Shown here in pieces: positions 14,096-62,132 of a stretch of DNA of 64,000 nucleotides. Numbering within the stretch: the first letter of the stretch is position 1; the number at the start of each line of letters is the position of its first letter. Under the pieces are notes generated by a model, which was not told the origin of the DNA, did not search any database, and saw nothing but the letters and a program-made list of their open reading frames with translations. The stretch is from a virus: positions 1 to 64,000 of the IMG/VR virus record IMGVR_UViG_3300042562_001157, one strand, 5' to 3'. Both the position numbers and the translations under genes were made by a program.

Positions 14096-14463
14096 GGGGG
14101 TGTATTGGATTTGACTTCGCGTAAGAAGAGTAGGCGTAAGCGTGTCGTGGTAGAGCGTTAATCTAAAAAAAACAATAGTCGGCAACGATACAAACATGGG
14201 CTTAGCCCTAAACGAAAACATTCTTTTGAATGGTACTGTAGGTACAATTGCAAAAGAAGAGGTTGTATTCGCCTAATCGAGTAATACATACAGGTTATTA
14301 TCTTTTTGAACCTTTATAAATAAGAAGACTGAGGATTAGTTGTCAGTAAACCGAACAGTGTAATAAGGGAACTGTCTATTTTGTTAGTTTAGAAAAACTG
14401 ACTACACACGTAGAAATCCATTTGGACATGGGAAGGACGAGGGTTCGAAACCCTCCACCTCCA
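14096..14463 (+). ncRNA. ssrA: tmRNA (transfer-messenger RNA)
   Basis: 368 nt. The acceptor stem GGGGGTG 14096-14102 pairs with CACCTCC 14456-14462, with discriminator A at 14463. The 5' segment TATTGGATTTGAC is typical of tmRNA. The T arm is GAGGG-TTCGAAA-CCCTC at 14439-14455. The resume region is AATAGTC then GGC at 14181. The tag frame runs to TAA at 14274-14276 and encodes 31 residues, starting GNDTNMGLAL and ending EEVVFA. It would rescue stalled ribosomes and tag the nascent chain. The tag is far longer than the usual one and lacks a terminal LAA. CCA is not encoded (CTA follows). Confidence 0.93.
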
Positions 14464-14473
14464 CTAAAGGTTT

Positions 14474-35579: not shown

Positions 35580-36152
35580 ATGAAAATAAAATTAACCGAA
35601 ACACAATACAACAGATTACTTACTGAAGATAAAAACTACGGTAGGTTAGGGGACACCTTCCAACAATATATGGTTAGGGTATTTAAATTATTAGGTAAGA
35701 AAAACTTATCTGACGAGGGAATGAAAAAAATAATTAAAGGGGATTTAGGTTTGTCTGATCATGAAACTAATATCCTTTTATATAACTATAAAAATAAATT
35801 CCGACCATTACCTATCACAGAATATGATAGTCTAATTGGGGAACCAATAGAATTTGTAGGTACATATAAAATTGCAGTTAATATGCCAACAGTAGTATCT
35901 TGTAGGACATATATAGATGGATTTGTTGAAGTTACTGCCAATTCAAAAGAAGATGCAATAAATAAGGTAGAAAATGGTACTTATGAAAGAATGTATTTAG
36001 ATACGAATTCTTTAGATTTTATGAATCCTGAATTAGATTTTGATTTACCTGATGATGGAGAAATAATGGAGGAGATGACATTAGATAATTTTAGAGATGT
36101 GGATTGGAGTGATGAAGATGAGGTTGATTGGAGAGTAAATTTAAAAATATGA
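35580..36152 (+). CDS. Leader-motif protein, paralogous family
   Basis: 190 aa. MKIKLTETQYNRLLTEDKNY, then FQQYMVRVFKLLGKKNLSDE and a DLGLSDHETNILLYNYKNKF segment like its paralogs, followed by a beta-rich acidic part. Function unknown. Confidence 0.84.
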   Translation: MKIKLTETQYNRLLTEDKNYGRLGDTFQQYMVRVFKLLGKKNLSDEGMKKIIKGDLGLSDHETNILLYNYKNKFRPLPITEYDSLIGEPIEFVGTYKIAVNMPTVVSCRTYIDGFVEVTANSKEDAINKVENGTYERMYLDTNSLDFMNPELDFDLPDDGEIMEEMTLDNFRDVDWSDEDEVDWRVNLKI

Positions 36153-36571
36153 AAATAATAATAACTGAAAGTCAATATAAAAAAGTTTTACTAAGAGAAT
36201 TTGGTGAAACCGTAAGTGATCCTAAGAAATGGTATAGAATGATACTTAAGTGGGTAGGTAATGATCCTAAAAGGTTAAGTTTTGATAGTAAGGAATATGA
36301 AACTATTGCCTACGATGATAAAGGTATATACTTAGGTTATTACGATAAAGAAGGTGGGTATGGTTTCGTTGTTACCGAATATGGTATCGGTGTAGATGAT
36401 TATACTGAAGAGATATTAGACGAAGAAGATGCGGCTGGTGGAGATGCACCTGCAGGTGGATCTTCTACAGTTTGGCCACTTACCGATGTTGGTAGAGGAC
36501 CTGCGAACCCTATAGATAGTACACCGTGGGGTGTAAGTCCGACTAGAGGGCCCGCAAATCAATTAACGTAA
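36149..36571 (+). CDS. Leader-motif protein
   Basis: 140 aa from the ATG at 36149 (overlapping the previous stop by 4 nt), which gives MKIIITESQYKKVLLREFGE. The middle is beta-rich with Tyr/Gly. The C-terminus is Gly/Pro/Ala-rich (GGDAPAGGSSTVWPL, RGPANPI, RGPANQLT), looking unstructured. Confidence 0.8.
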   Translation: MKIIITESQYKKVLLREFGETVSDPKKWYRMILKWVGNDPKRLSFDSKEYETIAYDDKGIYLGYYDKEGGYGFVVTEYGIGVDDYTEEILDEEDAAGGDAPAGGSSTVWPLTDVGRGPANPIDSTPWGVSPTRGPANQLT

Positions 36572-43002: not shown

Positions 43003-44568
43003 ATGAAGATAAAATTAAACGTAAGTCAATATAAAAGATTACTATCAGAAATGAGACATGATGGTAAGTCCACTGGTTTATTTGCGGATGAAGAACCTAA
43101 AGTGGTTAATGAATTCGGTAAAAAAATGAAATCGTATGTTAATGATAAAAGTGATGAATTAAAAAATTCTTGGAAAACTTTTGTTAGTGTGGCGAAAAGA
43201 GAAAAGGGTGAAACAATTGAGTTACTTAAAGTATTACAAAAACTTGTAAGTGGTAAAGAAGTAACTGAAAATGAAATAAAACTATTGAAGGCACAGTCTA
43301 AAGATATTGTAAAGATAGTTGCGGTTATGGGTATGGGAGCAGTATCAATGGCAATACCACTATTGTTGGAAAAGGTTTTAAATAAATACGGTATATCTAT
43401 AATGCCTAGTAGTCATAAAGAATTGGGTAGTGAAGAAAGTACTGAAGAAATTAATGAAGGTAAAAAGAAAAAGAAAAATACATTGTGTGCTAGAGGTGTA
43501 AGTGCTGCAAAATCTAAATACGATGTTTATCCTTCTGCATACGCTAATGGTTATGCAGTTCAGGTATGTAAAGGTAAGATTAAAGGATTGGATGGTCAAA
43601 AAAGATGTAGTGGAAGTTACTGCAGTGGTAAAAGAAATGAATCATATAATTTTGACGATATAGAAGTTGCGGAAAGATTAGATGAAGATTTGGCAGTTTG
43701 GTTTGGTACTAAAAAAAAGGGTAAAGGTACTAAACAACCACAAGGACCTTGGGTTAACATATGTAGAAAAAAAGAAGGTGGTGGACATCCTGAGTGTGGT
43801 AGAAGTGATTCCGATAAAGGTGGATATCCAGTTTGTAGGGCAAAGAGTGTTGCTGCGAATATGAGTCAGGAGGCTAAAGATTCTGCGTGTAGACGTAAGA
43901 GAGAAAAAGAAAAAAATGATGGTAAATCAGGAAAAGGACAATCACCAAGTCCTATTAAAGTTAAAAACTATAAACCTAAAAAGAATGAATCATTAAACTA
44001 CGATAGAATGTTAATTACTGAAAACAGGACTATCATTAGTGAAGGTTTAAGATATCATATAGATAATGAAATACCATTAACTGAATCAGTTTATAGATAT
44101 GGTAGTGAATCTTTCTTTAACTTAATAAACGAAGTTAGAGAATTATATACAAACGGTAAAATTGATTTATCATTTAATGATGAGGAGATTATAAGAACCG
44201 ATATTGGTAAACAAGGTATCTATGAGGGTAGAAAGGTTTGGTTGGACATACCAAATGAGTATATGGAAATAAATGAGGCAGAATATAAAGGTAAGACAGT
44301 TGAGTTGAGTAAACCTAAAAGAGGTGGTAGTAAAAAGTTTTATGTTTATGTGATGTGTAATGGTAAGGTTAGAAAAGTTTCCTTTGGGGCAAAATCTGGT
44401 GGATCAAATTTGTCAGTAAAACTTAGAGACCCTAAGGCTAAAAAGGCGTTTTCAGATAGACACAATTGTCCACAGAAAAATGATAAATGTAGTGCTGGTT
44501 ATTGGAGTTGTAGATTACCGAGATATGCAAAACAATTAGGATTATCAGGTGGAGGTACTTGGTGGTAA
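43003..44568 (+). CDS. Multi-module leader-motif protein (DUF5872/DUF6321-like modules)
   Basis: 521 aa, apparently a string of small domains. Leader MKIKLNVSQYKRLLSEMRHD; helical domain to about 150; NTLCARGVSAAKSKYDVYPS (DUF5872-like) at about 158-205; GPWVNICRKKEGGGHPECGR with CRAKSVAANMSQEAKDSACR (DUF6321-like) at about 245-305; a C-terminal FYVYVMCNGKVRKVSFGAKS module ending WSCRLPRYAK. Module borders carry INEG (150), ITEN (338), ISEG (345), LTES (359) and INEA (423), suggesting proteolytic maturation. The modules usually occur singly in phage proteins of unknown function. Confidence 0.82.
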   Translation: MKIKLNVSQYKRLLSEMRHDGKSTGLFADEEPKVVNEFGKKMKSYVNDKSDELKNSWKTFVSVAKREKGETIELLKVLQKLVSGKEVTENEIKLLKAQSKDIVKIVAVMGMGAVSMAIPLLLEKVLNKYGISIMPSSHKELGSEESTEEINEGKKKKKNTLCARGVSAAKSKYDVYPSAYANGYAVQVCKGKIKGLDGQKRCSGSYCSGKRNESYNFDDIEVAERLDEDLAVWFGTKKKGKGTKQPQGPWVNICRKKEGGGHPECGRSDSDKGGYPVCRAKSVAANMSQEAKDSACRRKREKEKNDGKSGKGQSPSPIKVKNYKPKKNESLNYDRMLITENRTIISEGLRYHIDNEIPLTESVYRYGSESFFNLINEVRELYTNGKIDLSFNDEEIIRTDIGKQGIYEGRKVWLDIPNEYMEINEAEYKGKTVELSKPKRGGSKKFYVYVMCNGKVRKVSFGAKSGGSNLSVKLRDPKAKKAFSDRHNCPQKNDKCSAGYWSCRLPRYAKQLGLSGGGTWW

Positions 44569-47932: not shown

Positions 47933-48259
47933 ATGGATTATATTATAGATGAAATTTATGAAATTTTTTGTGATACAGACAAACTACTTACAGTAACCTT
48001 TAAGGTTGAGGGTGACATTGAAGATTCTTATAGGGAATTAATTGACAGTGAATATTATAATTGGTGTAACGAACATTACATTACCGAAGGTGAAAACTTA
48101 GTAGACTATGATCGTTACGATGATGAAGATGAATATATGTCAGACTTCTTTAATCACGACAAATGGAATATGTATTACTCCAATGAGGATATGATTATTG
48201 AATACTTATATGAGAACTATTCAGATTTGAGAACCTTACCTTCACCAAAGGTAGATTAG
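47933..48259 (+). CDS. Hypothetical acidic protein
   Basis: 108 aa, very acidic, rich in Tyr and Asp. No domain recognised. Converges with the 802-aa gene on the minus strand with a 4-nt overlap. Confidence 0.75.
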   Translation: MDYIIDEIYEIFCDTDKLLTVTFKVEGDIEDSYRELIDSEYYNWCNEHYITEGENLVDYDRYDDEDEYMSDFFNHDKWNMYYSNEDMIIEYLYENYSDLRTLPSPKVD

Positions 48260-50664
48260 TATCTCCAATCTATCCAATCTATAGAGTCACCTTTATAGTA
48301 TTCTACATATAGTACATCGTCAGTCTCAATATCCTGAACTCTAGATTCTGTTGGTTTACTAACAGAATTTGTGGAAGAATTATATACACTGTCATCATAT
48401 ATATGAACCATTTTACCAAATAGTTTAGACAGTATTTTTTCAGAATCTGTTGAGTCAAACCCCATAGAATATAAATTGTATATGTAAGGTGGTTCTAATT
48501 TGGGTACTACTTTATCTATTAAGTCATTGGTAACTGATTCGTTTATATCACCCATCGTATGAATCTGTAAATTCTCAACACCTTTATCGAAATCTGCCCA
48601 ATCACCGTTAGGCCATTCCCTATAGGTTAGTCTACCATTATTTCTATCCCTAACTTCAATGAATTGTTGGTAAAAATCCAAATGTACTTCTTTACTAAAA
48701 ACAACACTAAGTATTGTATCCCATTCAGATTGTGGTATACCTAAAGATTCTAAATCAGAAAAATAAGGTGGATTGATTAATTTTGAAATTTTATCGAATA
48801 AAATTTTTTTTTTATCGATAGACTCGTTGACTAAATCATTTACACCACCTTTTATAATTTGCCCATCACTAGTGACTAAATTAACTTTTAAGTTTACTCC
48901 ATTTTCTTTTCCCCACTGTTTAAACTCAATGGCGTGTGGTTCTCTATCTTCCCACATTTCTATCTGATTAACATTAGGGAATCTATTCAGTAGACTTTTA
49001 ATGGTATTAAATTTACTAGTCAAAGTATCGCCATTACCTTTATAGTGATATTCATCAAAAGATATGTTATGTAATAGTAATAATTCTTCTATTTGTTCTG
49101 ACTGATGTGGTATTCTACCTGTTAACATTATTACTAAAGTACTAGGATTAGATTTCTCTCTTAGGTAATCTGCAACAGTATTTTCTATAGGTTGTATGTC
49201 GAATACTGCATCATCTAAAGACTCTGGTTTACTCCACCATCCTATATGTGGATATTCTTTACCAGTAAATTCCTCCCACTGTTTCTTACCTTCTTCAGGG
49301 TGTGGTGTCTTCATTAATGTACCATCGAAATCAAATATTGAAATTTTGTTGATTAGATTATAACTTTCTACTAGTAATTTTACTTTCTTATTGTATCTAA
49401 CACTTTCGTTTAAATCTAAAACACTACCTGAAACCCAATTAGTTAATTCTTCTATGGGTGTTATATGTGTTTGATCATCGTATGTGAATTTAACTTTATT
49501 ATTTTTAAAGTCGATATCGTTACTATATAGTGTTAATATACCATTTCTAGCCATATAATATTCACCCTGCGAAGTGTCTGTTATTTTTTTAAAACCTAAT
49601 TTATTTAATAAATCTAAAACATACTTTCTATTTAATATTAACTCCTCTAAGTCAATATCTTCTGATTCAGTAATTTTTTCTATTGTGGATTTTAATGATC
49701 TGTTTAGTTCGGTAACCACCTCATCTACACCATCACTATCAATCCACTCACCGTAGTAAGCATCCTCCAAATCAACATCAGGTTGTATTTCCGCATCTTT
49801 TAATTCAGAAAGATTAAGTAGATTCCTTTCTTTTACTATTTCTATTAATTCAACATACGGTATTTCTATACAATAATCACCGAATCTACATCTAGTTTTA
49901 TTAGTATCGTATTTAATTTCATTTGTATAAGTTTTTCTTACACTATCTTGTCTAGCCCTAGTTATGACAATACTCATCTCACCTATATAATCATCAACTA
50001 TCCTTTCGTAATATTCTTTAGGTAATACTTCACCTAAAAAATCGTTAACTTCTTGTTCCCCAATCTTTTTACCATCTTTACCAGGCCATTCAGATAACCC
50101 TGACAGTATCGCCAAAGTTTCTAAGTGTTCTACTGTCTCATCATTAGTATATACATAATCAAACTCTGATGTTTCTATTTCTTCATAGTAATCACCATAA
50201 GAACTAAATGCCTCATAATATTTCCATAAATCATCATCACCTAACCCAGAAAAATATTTTTCCCATTCATCTCTATCTAAAGTTATTGTCACTGACTCAT
50301 TTCCAAAGTCTAAACAGGGTGTATTGTAGTTATTACATAAAACAAACCAGTCACCGATTAAAGAGTCTAATTTTTCACGATTGTTATCATATAACTCATC
50401 TATATATTCATTTACGTTTGAATTTAATAAAGATATATTATTCAAAAAATTGAGAAGAGGTCCTTCTCTATCTACTTCTATTGTATCGTAATCACCAGTA
50501 CCCTTATTATAGTACCAAAGTCTATATAAATCTAGTACCTCAGATTTATCCAACCCAAATTCATCTTTAAGTATTTTAAACACTTGATCCTTATTGGAGG
50601 TGTTATCAATCTTTTTATCTAAATAGGATAGTATTTTTATCTCAAATTTCGTAAGTTTGTCCAT
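48256..50664 (-). CDS. Large multidomain protein with internal HAD domain, possible polyprotein
   Basis: 802 aa. N-terminal LTKFEIKILSYLDKK and LYRLWYYNKGTGDYDTI belong to the paralogous helical family. At about 441-600 there is a HAD phosphatase-like domain: IFDFDGTLMKTPHPEEGK (motif I), VIMLTGRIP (motif II), MWEDREPHAIEF (motif IV). Sites LNES 418-421, VNES 612-615 and INES 707-710 flank the HAD domain and separate two short, mutually similar C-terminal segments (LINPPYFSDLESLGI and LEPPYIYNLYSMGF). This layout suggests cleavage into parts (inference). Confidence 0.83.
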   Translation of the reverse strand: MDKLTKFEIKILSYLDKKIDNTSNKDQVFKILKDEFGLDKSEVLDLYRLWYYNKGTGDYDTIEVDREGPLLNFLNNISLLNSNVNEYIDELYDNNREKLDSLIGDWFVLCNNYNTPCLDFGNESVTITLDRDEWEKYFSGLGDDDLWKYYEAFSSYGDYYEEIETSEFDYVYTNDETVEHLETLAILSGLSEWPGKDGKKIGEQEVNDFLGEVLPKEYYERIVDDYIGEMSIVITRARQDSVRKTYTNEIKYDTNKTRCRFGDYCIEIPYVELIEIVKERNLLNLSELKDAEIQPDVDLEDAYYGEWIDSDGVDEVVTELNRSLKSTIEKITESEDIDLEELILNRKYVLDLLNKLGFKKITDTSQGEYYMARNGILTLYSNDIDFKNNKVKFTYDDQTHITPIEELTNWVSGSVLDLNESVRYNKKVKLLVESYNLINKISIFDFDGTLMKTPHPEEGKKQWEEFTGKEYPHIGWWSKPESLDDAVFDIQPIENTVADYLREKSNPSTLVIMLTGRIPHQSEQIEELLLLHNISFDEYHYKGNGDTLTSKFNTIKSLLNRFPNVNQIEMWEDREPHAIEFKQWGKENGVNLKVNLVTSDGQIIKGGVNDLVNESIDKKKILFDKISKLINPPYFSDLESLGIPQSEWDTILSVVFSKEVHLDFYQQFIEVRDRNNGRLTYREWPNGDWADFDKGVENLQIHTMGDINESVTNDLIDKVVPKLEPPYIYNLYSMGFDSTDSEKILSKLFGKMVHIYDDSVYNSSTNSVSKPTESRVQDIETDDVLYVEYYKGDSIDWIDWRY

Positions 50665-60278: not shown

Positions 60279-60764
60279 ATGGAAAATTTAAATGAAGAAA
60301 TAGACAGAATCAAAAAGTTAATGTTATTTGAGTCCTCTGAAGTTAAATCTGATGTTGAAACAGATACTGAAGAAACTGAAAATGTTACTGACAATGAAGA
60401 TGAAGGTGATAAAAATTTTATGGTTTATGGTGATACCGTAATAAAAGTTTCTGGTGGTTGGTTAAAAGATAATAAAAATAGATTAGGGTGTGTTAAGGTT
60501 GAAAAACCATTTTATATGGGTGGTGGAGATTTTGCTCAGGGTATAAAAAAATTAGTCCAAAGAGTGAAAGGTAATGTGGTTGCCGAACCAGTAAATGCTA
60601 TTAGTTTATATGATGAAATTAAATTGACTAAAGATGAGAAAAATGATTTAGTAAAAAAATGGGAATCTAATAAGGTTTATAGTAAAGAACAGTCAGGTGC
60701 GGTAATTAAAATAGGTAGAACAGACGGATTAAAAAATTACTGTAAAAATGAATGGGGTGGTTAA
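60279..60764 (+). CDS. Leader-motif protein (NLNEEI type)
   Basis: 161 aa. Leader MENLNEEIDRIKKLMLFESS, nearly the same as that at 61317. Acidic linker, then a compact domain (YGDTVIKVSGGWLKDNKNRL...). No known fold recognised. Confidence 0.8.
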   Translation: MENLNEEIDRIKKLMLFESSEVKSDVETDTEETENVTDNEDEGDKNFMVYGDTVIKVSGGWLKDNKNRLGCVKVEKPFYMGGGDFAQGIKKLVQRVKGNVVAEPVNAISLYDEIKLTKDEKNDLVKKWESNKVYSKEQSGAVIKIGRTDGLKNYCKNEWGG

Positions 60765-60779
60765 TATAGCATAAAAGTT

Positions 60780-61310
60780 ATGAAAAATACAATTAAAAAA
60801 ATATTAAAGGAAACTGTTGACAATAAGAAAGATAAGTTTGATAGATATATTATCAGCACCCTTAAAAAAGAAGGTTTTGTCCCTTCTACGGATTACGTTA
60901 AAGTTATAAAATTTTTAAATAGTAATTTCACCTTAAGTGGTATGGAAGCATTTGAGATGTACCAACTATTCCTTAACAATTTTAAAAGTGACATCGAATA
61001 TGGTGATTTGAATAGAACCGTTAATACCACTAAAAAAATTAAATCTGCAAATAGTAGTGCTAGAGATTTAGTTTCTAGTAAAATACCGTTTAAAGGTAGT
61101 AATACACATGCAGAATACGTTGGTAAGACGTATGTAGTATATTCATATAATTGGTACCCAATATTTGTATTTAAGGATGGGCAATGGTTTGAAAATGAAA
61201 ATAGATACTCAATGTCAACCGCCAAACAAATGAGTCAATTGAGACCGAATGGGCAAGGTGAAATAATAAAGGCGTCTAAGTCTAAACTAAGTGATATAAT
61301 ATATAGTTAA
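60780..61310 (+). CDS. Leader-motif protein, paralogous family
   Basis: 176 aa. Leader MKNTIKKILKETVDNKKDKF. The helical domain (YIISTLKKEGFVPSTDYVKV, AFEMYQLFLNNFKSDIEYGD) matches the paralogs at 41908 and 48256. Beta-rich C-terminus (TYVVYSYNWYPIFVFKDGQW). Function unknown. Confidence 0.8.
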   Translation: MKNTIKKILKETVDNKKDKFDRYIISTLKKEGFVPSTDYVKVIKFLNSNFTLSGMEAFEMYQLFLNNFKSDIEYGDLNRTVNTTKKIKSANSSARDLVSSKIPFKGSNTHAEYVGKTYVVYSYNWYPIFVFKDGQWFENENRYSMSTAKQMSQLRPNGQGEIIKASKSKLSDIIYS

Positions 61311-61313
61311 TGT

Positions 61314-62132
61314 ATGGGTAACTTAAATGAAGAAATAAGTCGTATTAAATCTATCATGGGTGTGATTACTGAATCGGAAAAATTCGGTATGAGTGACACC
61401 TTTAAAAAATTAAAGAAGACTATTGAGGTTTTAAAAGAAAAAGATAAGGTTTTAATACTATCTTGTTCTAATAGATATCAGTTTGATCCTAAAAATATTG
61501 ATATACCTAAATCTAAATTGTTGGCAATGTACATACAGGAAGAATTAGGGGATAAGGCAACTTTTATTGATGTTACGGAATTAAAAATATTACCTTGTGA
61601 AGGTAATGTTTCCAGATCAGAAGGTAACTCTTGTGGATTATTAAAGGCATTACTTAAAGATAAAACAAAAAACCCATCAGGACATCACAGATGTTGGGTC
61701 AATATTAACGAACCGTCTGATGAACTTTGGAAAATCAGTAAGGAATTGTTTGAGTCTGACGCAGTTGTATTCTTTTCATCTGTTAGATGGGGACAAACAA
61801 ATATGTACTACCAAAATCTAATCGAAAGATTAACTTGGATTCAAAATAGACATACTACGTTAGGTGAATCAAATCTTATTAAAGACATTGAGTCTGGGTA
61901 TATATGTGTTGGACAGAATTGGAATGGTGCAAATGTAATTGAAACACAAAAGGGTGTTCACCATTATTATGGTTTTAAAGTGAATGAAGACTTATATTGG
62001 AATTGGCAATATACACAAAATGCTGATGATGAAACACAAAAATCTTATAAGGCATCACATAATAAATTTTTAAAGGACACTAAGATACCTGAAGAATTTG
62101 TTGAGGAGAATGAAAAATCAAAGAAAAAATAA
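61314..62132 (+). CDS. Flavodoxin-fold oxidoreductase-like protein with leader
   Basis: 272 aa. Leader MGNLNEEISRIKSIMGVITE, helical spacer, then a flavodoxin-like core: KVLILSCSNRYQ at the first strand, and SDAVVFFSSVRWGQTNMYYQ with NLIERLTWIQNR, as in NADPH-dependent FMN reductases. The phosphate-binding loop is atypical, so flavin binding is uncertain. The leader suggests it travels in the virion (inference). An ATG three nt later is also possible. Confidence 0.8.
   Translation: MGNLNEEISRIKSIMGVITESEKFGMSDTFKKLKKTIEVLKEKDKVLILSCSNRYQFDPKNIDIPKSKLLAMYIQEELGDKATFIDVTELKILPCEGNVSRSEGNSCGLLKALLKDKTKNPSGHHRCWVNINEPSDELWKISKELFESDAVVFFSSVRWGQTNMYYQNLIERLTWIQNRHTTLGESNLIKDIESGYICVGQNWNGANVIETQKGVHHYYGFKVNEDLYWNWQYTQNADDETQKSYKASHNKFLKDTKIPEEFVEENEKSKKK

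Follow-up and report, generated by a model that had tools for sequence, protein, structure and literature searches.

A putative cargo polyprotein with prohead-protease-type motifs at its module borders in a large, probably T4-like phage

An 802-amino-acid protein of a large phage, which is probably T4-like and Bacteroidota-infecting, carries tetrapeptides of the form [L/I/V]-x-E-S at the borders of its modules. We consider it probable, judging from the sequence and its relatives, that this protein is a head-packaged cargo polyprotein that would be cut by a prohead protease of the gp21 family. The chain would enter the prohead during head assembly, and the protease would cut at E420, E433, E614 and E709, on the C-terminal side of the glutamate in [L/I/V]-x-E|S. 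The products would be a helical protein of 420 residues, a linker peptide of 13, a HAD phosphatase of 181 and two modules of ~95 residues. The freed pieces would remain with the DNA and be delivered into the next host. The gene lies in the window analysed here, namely 64,000 nucleotides (positions 1 to 64,000) of the IMG/VR virus record IMGVR_UViG_3300042562_001157; the full record is a fragment of 71,201 bases without head genes. The features of the gene are as follows.

48256..50664, minus strand: 802-aa polyprotein-like gene, with homologues in IMG/VR loci
49405..50664, minus strand: N-terminal mostly helical part, residues 1-420, predicted first product (AlphaFold)
49663..49674, minus strand: ITES 331-334, possible extra site (pLDDT dip)
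49402..49413, minus strand: LNES 418-421, predicted prohead-protease site, cut after E420 (conservation, pLDDT)
49363..49374, minus strand: LVES 431-434, second predicted site beside the 13-residue linker (conservation, pLDDT)
48823..49365, minus strand: HAD phosphatase, RNA-repair/PNKP-like, residues 434-614 (PF10307, PHROG 415, Foldseek)
48820..48831, minus strand: VNES 612-615, predicted site preceding the first C-module (relatives, pLDDT)
48538..48822, minus strand: C-module copy 1, residues 615-709, 95 aa (profile E about 6e-23)
48535..48546, minus strand: INES 707-710, predicted site preceding the second C-module (relatives, pLDDT)
48259..48537, minus strand: C-module copy 2, residues 710-802, 93 aa (profile E about 4e-20)

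The open reading frame called by the sequence-only reading was borne out; it starts with ATG on the minus strand, and the plus strand is stop-rich there. LNES 418-421, VNES 612-615 and INES 707-710 were found at exactly the residues claimed, together with two sites that had been missed, LVES 431-434 and ITES 331-334. LVES 431 and LNES 418 enclose the linker that precedes the HAD domain. The [L/I]-x-E motif of a gp21-type (S77) substrate is present in LNE 418, LVE 431 and INE 707, and VNE at site 612 fits it less well. Homologues in IMG/VR share about 40-100% identity across the helical part and the HAD domain.

The AlphaFold model, built with a 19-sequence alignment (mean pLDDT 80.8), contains the proposed helical domain as a mostly helical part, residues 1-420, for which no significant family match was found in Pfam or PHROGs. 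The proposed HAD domain was recovered as Pfam HAD_SAK_1 (PF10307) with an E value of 7.6e-11, above the curated cut-off, and matched the PHROG 415 polynucleotide kinase at 7e-5. In Foldseek its structure matched a viral Swiss-Army-Knife (SAK) HAD and PNKP phosphatases, with a weak match to the Pnkp1/Rnl/Hen1 complex. Searching solved structures by sequence yielded just a chance-level HAD match. The domain has the HAD fold with catalytic motifs I-IV of HAD_SAK_1 / PNKP-type phosphatases, and D445, D447, T515, R517, K551 and D573 are invariant across the family alignment. The HAD piece is probably a polynucleotide/RNA 3'-phosphatase. Because it resembles RNA-repair/PNKP phosphatases and retains the catalytic residues, our best guess is that it repairs RNA or DNA ends early on. 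The Pfam and PHROGs scans of the whole protein returned the HAD domain only, and no embedded peptidase was detected.

The predicted sites fall in low-confidence linkers of the model, which is consistent with a cargo polyprotein. The interior segments with pLDDT <50 are 414-420, 426-433, 610-615 and 760-764; block 701-710 has a mean of 54, and block 331-340 is a local minimum with a mean of 66. Because pLDDT minima coincide with every site, the sites appear as weak spots that separate better-predicted stretches. A previous model from five sequences showed low-confidence stretches at the same places, plus others.

Conservation was evaluated in a family alignment of 15 members, down to about 40% identity. 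L418 and E420 are retained in 15/15 members, and so is [LI]431-x-E433, although indels occur around the latter; these are the only sites conserved in all members. Conservation of site 418 alone cannot single out the site, because the whole block GSVLDLNES is kept throughout the family. VNES 612 is retained in relatives of 81-82% identity and is replaced by LNE|S at the equivalent place in a 51% identical relative (L065); INES 707 is also retained in relatives, and ITES 331 is not conserved (IVDS, IIEE or IEDD). L/I and E stay fixed while P1' can be S, N, C, T, V or Q.

Head genes were located in relatives, outside the 71-kb source fragment. The closest informative relative, G003, is a 166-kb contig with a copy of the 802-aa protein that is 81% identical, and G005 is more distant (43%). 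Both encode a prohead protease of the T4 gp21 type (PF03420, above cut-off with E 6.8e-26 in G003 and 1e-25 in G005) and a major capsid protein of the gp23 type (E 2e-62 and 1e-63, respectively); the gene order is portal, protease, acidic scaffold-like protein and capsid protein. The T4 gp21 protease recognises L/I-X-E and cleaves after E (PMC9026906), and the protease of the giant phage SPN3US prefers S at P1' (PMC10052503). The N-terminal region of the capsid protein reads ...YENQASALLNE-STSADSSG in G003 and ...LLNE-ATDASSSG in G005, thereby placing the predicted propeptide ends at LNE|S and LNE|A. The site tetrapeptide of the 802-aa protein is therefore identical to the one at which the capsid protein of a close relative is predicted to be matured. 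The scaffold-like protein contains IEE-A, LLE-A, IKE-S, IRE-S, INE-S and LNE-S. That relatives have a gp21-type protease and an LNE|S motif in the capsid protein argues for cleavage of the 802-aa chain by the same type of enzyme.

The motif also marks the N-termini of many other proteins. [LI]xE[SA] occurs within the first 30 residues 35 times in G003 against 5.9 expected and 26 times in G005 against 6.0, counts that are not independent since the two genomes are related; Flavobacterium phage immuto (50 kb) has 9 against 2.0, and the control, Bacteroides phage crAss001, shows no excess (2 against 3.3). N-terminal [LI]xD[SA] is at most slightly raised (9 against 4.7 in G005) and flat elsewhere. 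Tagged proteins number 31/192 in G003, and their mature parts after the tag are mutually unrelated (31/31 in G003; 24 clusters of 25 in G005). Such enrichment on unrelated proteins supports the cargo-polyprotein reading. Tag types comprise MKIxLTESQYKRLLxE, MKKIIRLTESDLxRIVxRVIxES, M[GS]RLGKLKRQLIEEANKRLLGE and MENLNEEIxRIKxLMLFES, frequently with two sites spaced 13 or 8 residues. P3 of the tags is enriched for L and I only, and VNES 612 is the weakest of the three proposed sites because V is not enriched there. In the 40-kb samples of 600-kb megaphages with distant HAD homologues, little or no motif excess was found.

Within the window proteome, [LIV]NES occurs 7 times against 1.5 expected and [LIVMF]xES 47 times against 28+-5. 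Internal [LI]NES in G003 amounts to 16 against 2.7, and internal counts alone need caution because the internal [LI]xD[SA] control is itself in excess in crAss001 (59 against 32; L078-L079). Among proteins of the window, a 747-aa protein (22-2265, plus strand) carries the tag MKRIILTESQYKRLVKKRLNE ahead of cell-wall domains (glucosaminidase, VanY-like and M23), as in a tagged wall hydrolase, and the neighbouring proteins at 35580-36571, 43003-44568 and 60279-62132 begin with the related start tags MKIKLTETQYNRLLTE, MKIIITESQYKKVLLRE and MENLNEEIDRIKKLMLFES. Just beyond the window, a small protein (L074:6695-7159, record 66695-67159) begins with MRLHESIRRILREE... and continues into a HAD-type phosphatase-like sequence (YVDMGGVLF).

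The two C-terminal segments that had been described as similar proved to be homologous, given that one module profile, made from both copies and related modules, matches both (E ~1e-17 to 1e-23). Family members carry 0, 2 or 3 copies of this C-module: two in the 802-aa protein, three in L065 and none in most members (L055-L064, L066-L068). Each family copy is directly preceded by its own LNE|S, VNE|S, INE|S, FNE|S or FTE|S. The module is also reused outside the family. In G003 it forms a separate gene behind the tag MKVTIKGIIKE-SNDNKQRYYDKV..., a second separate gene behind ...IVKKILKE-DVENNLYKKI... and a further copy straight after a start codon; in L076 the gene corresponding to the GIIKE-tagged one holds two modules, following IKE-S and then INE-S. 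The source genome itself contains a C-module at record position 64891-65280, just past the window. The observation that C-modules travel with their own site, including as standalone tagged genes, favours their release from the 802-aa chain by cleavage.

The clearest polyprotein architecture in the analysis is a 615-aa chain of G003 (111853-113700; L034:11853-13700) with six tandem modules of about 100 aa. LNE-S, IYE-S, INE-S, INE-S and INE-S stand at 5/5 of its borders and none occurs within modules, which strengthens the cargo-polyprotein reading; the modules are 25-40% identical to each other. A 50% relative of this chain retains the motif at its own borders, and according to the tandem-module profile there are seven proteins whose second or later copies follow [LI]xE, G5_109166 being the one weak exception. 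Although their motifs look alike by eye, the C-module, the tandem module and the N-terminal domain were kept as three separate types because HHalign gave a probability below 1% and thus no support for a common origin. No relative of the family was found in the bacterial genomes searched.

These lines of independent sequence evidence support the proposal that a virion protease may cut after E of the repeated aliphatic-N-E-S at module borders, and other explanations were weighed against it. An origin of the tetrapeptides by chance is hardly credible. The 802-aa protein is indeed rich in N, E and S, but composition-keeping shuffles gave a mean of 0.09 for [LIV]NES and a P of about 5e-5 for three or more; moreover, the control motifs [LIVMF]xDS, xQS, xKS, xSE and ExS showed no enrichment in the window proteome, the motif is not enriched in crAss001, and conservation across relatives also disfavours chance. 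A long targeting propeptide or scaffold-binding domain comprising residues 1-420, with cuts at 420 and 433 only and the C-modules staying on the HAD domain, is unlikely. It would agree with sites 418 and 431 alone being conserved in 15/15 members, with the absence of C-modules from most members and with the propeptides of 111-254 residues in a giant phage (PMC10052503). However, a structured propeptide of 420 residues would be unusually long, and no C-module lacks a site or start codon of its own; such modules also occur standalone behind tags and in arrays.

Also quite unlikely is an ordinary cytoplasmic enzyme with several domains, whose xES boxes stay uncut and serve as linkers or helix caps that were duplicated along with the modules. 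The N-terminus MDKLTKFEIKILSYLDKK is without an [L/I]-x-E propeptide or tag of the T4 internal-protein type, the gene stands alone on the minus strand amid plus-strand genes and away from the head genes of relatives, and in tandem arrays the motif could be copied together with the unit. Yet the motif persists between modules that have diverged to about 25-40% identity, it stands at the end of the capsid propeptide and in the tags of dozens of unrelated proteins, and its L/I and E are fixed while P1' varies. The missing tag and the isolated gene also count against a cargo polyprotein, as do V at P3 of site 612 and the fact that the protease and capsid genes come from relatives only. The 802-aa protein would have to reach the head without an N-terminal [LI]xE tag. 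Stretch 418-434 was considered as an internalised N-terminal tag, since both have two sites 13 residues apart; this idea was dropped because a profile of dual-site N-terminal tags placed the stretch outside the top 25 internal windows, which likewise speaks against the cargo-polyprotein reading. Taken together, a cargo polyprotein cut by the prohead protease is still the reading that we prefer.

On balance, we lean slightly towards a broader view, in which this phage clade uses the prohead protease as a general polyprotein processor, with dozens of tagged cargos, tandem chains cut at every border and a modular, recombining payload. If this is true, tandem chains of ~100-residue modules, up to six per open reading frame, would be processed inside the prohead, and one gene would deliver several small effectors as part of a modular and rapidly recombining payload system. 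A Bacteroidota host is suggested by the low G+C and by the similarity of the capsid protein to that of Flavobacterium phage immuto (about 41%), and is tentative because a Microcystis phage capsid scores equally well. Immuto (MW353175; L077, 100-150 kb) is a cultured relative in which the protease, scaffold and capsid genes follow the same order and tags are in excess (12/52 against 3.9 expected); for this related cultured phage the finding yields a concrete, testable protein list. The window also contains a phage-encoded tmRNA at 14096-14464 (tag AKEEVVFA) and 24 tRNA genes.

The T4 prohead protease gp21 processes gp23, gp24, Alt, IPI-III, gp22 and gp67. The present system resembles it in the protease family (in relatives), the cut motif L/I-X-E and the comparably placed capsid propeptide; the short N-terminal tags that end in the motif on many unrelated proteins resemble T4 capsid targeting sequences. 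Unlike in T4, tagged proteins are far more numerous in this group (31/192 in G003). Multi-site cutting in T4 affects the scaffold or core proteins gp22 and gp67, and we know of no T4 cargo in which folded modules are strung together with sites between them. The maturation of phiKZ (gp175) and SPN3US (gp245) is similar in that many head proteins are processed, the cut follows E and cargo is ejected into the host, the same being predicted here; S at P1' is preferred in SPN3US and found at the sites of the 802-aa protein. By contrast, the cuts reported in SPN3US remove N-terminal propeptides and the protease's own C-terminal one, and in phiKZ the motif is S/A-X-E, not L/I-X-E.

Polyvalent proteins of phages and conjugative elements are fused domains that are thought to be packaged or transferred, injected and proteolytically separated (PMC5512222). 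Like them, the 802-aa protein combines distinct domains in one chain (helical part, HAD domain and two C-modules); unlike polyvalent proteins, which often have an embedded peptidase (PMC5512222), it would rely on the prohead protease in trans. The HAD domain shares the fold, the DxDGT motif and the conserved T, K and D with HAD_SAK_1 / PNKP phosphatases, and differs from those systems in that the phosphatase stands alone, without a kinase or ligase domain, and is flanked by protease-type sites. Trimming of N-terminal propeptides and destruction of the scaffold by prohead proteases are already known. In the open literature searched, which covers few subscription papers, no description was found of the tag motif, of prohead-protease polyproteins or of a cargo chain of folded modules with the prohead-protease motif at its borders. 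To our knowledge, the injected proteins of large uncultivated phages are almost unknown; should the sites be cut, virion cargo in such phages could be predicted from sequence by means of the tag and site motif, and the head protease would also free folded modules from cargo chains, thereby resembling the proteases of RNA viruses without an embedded peptidase.
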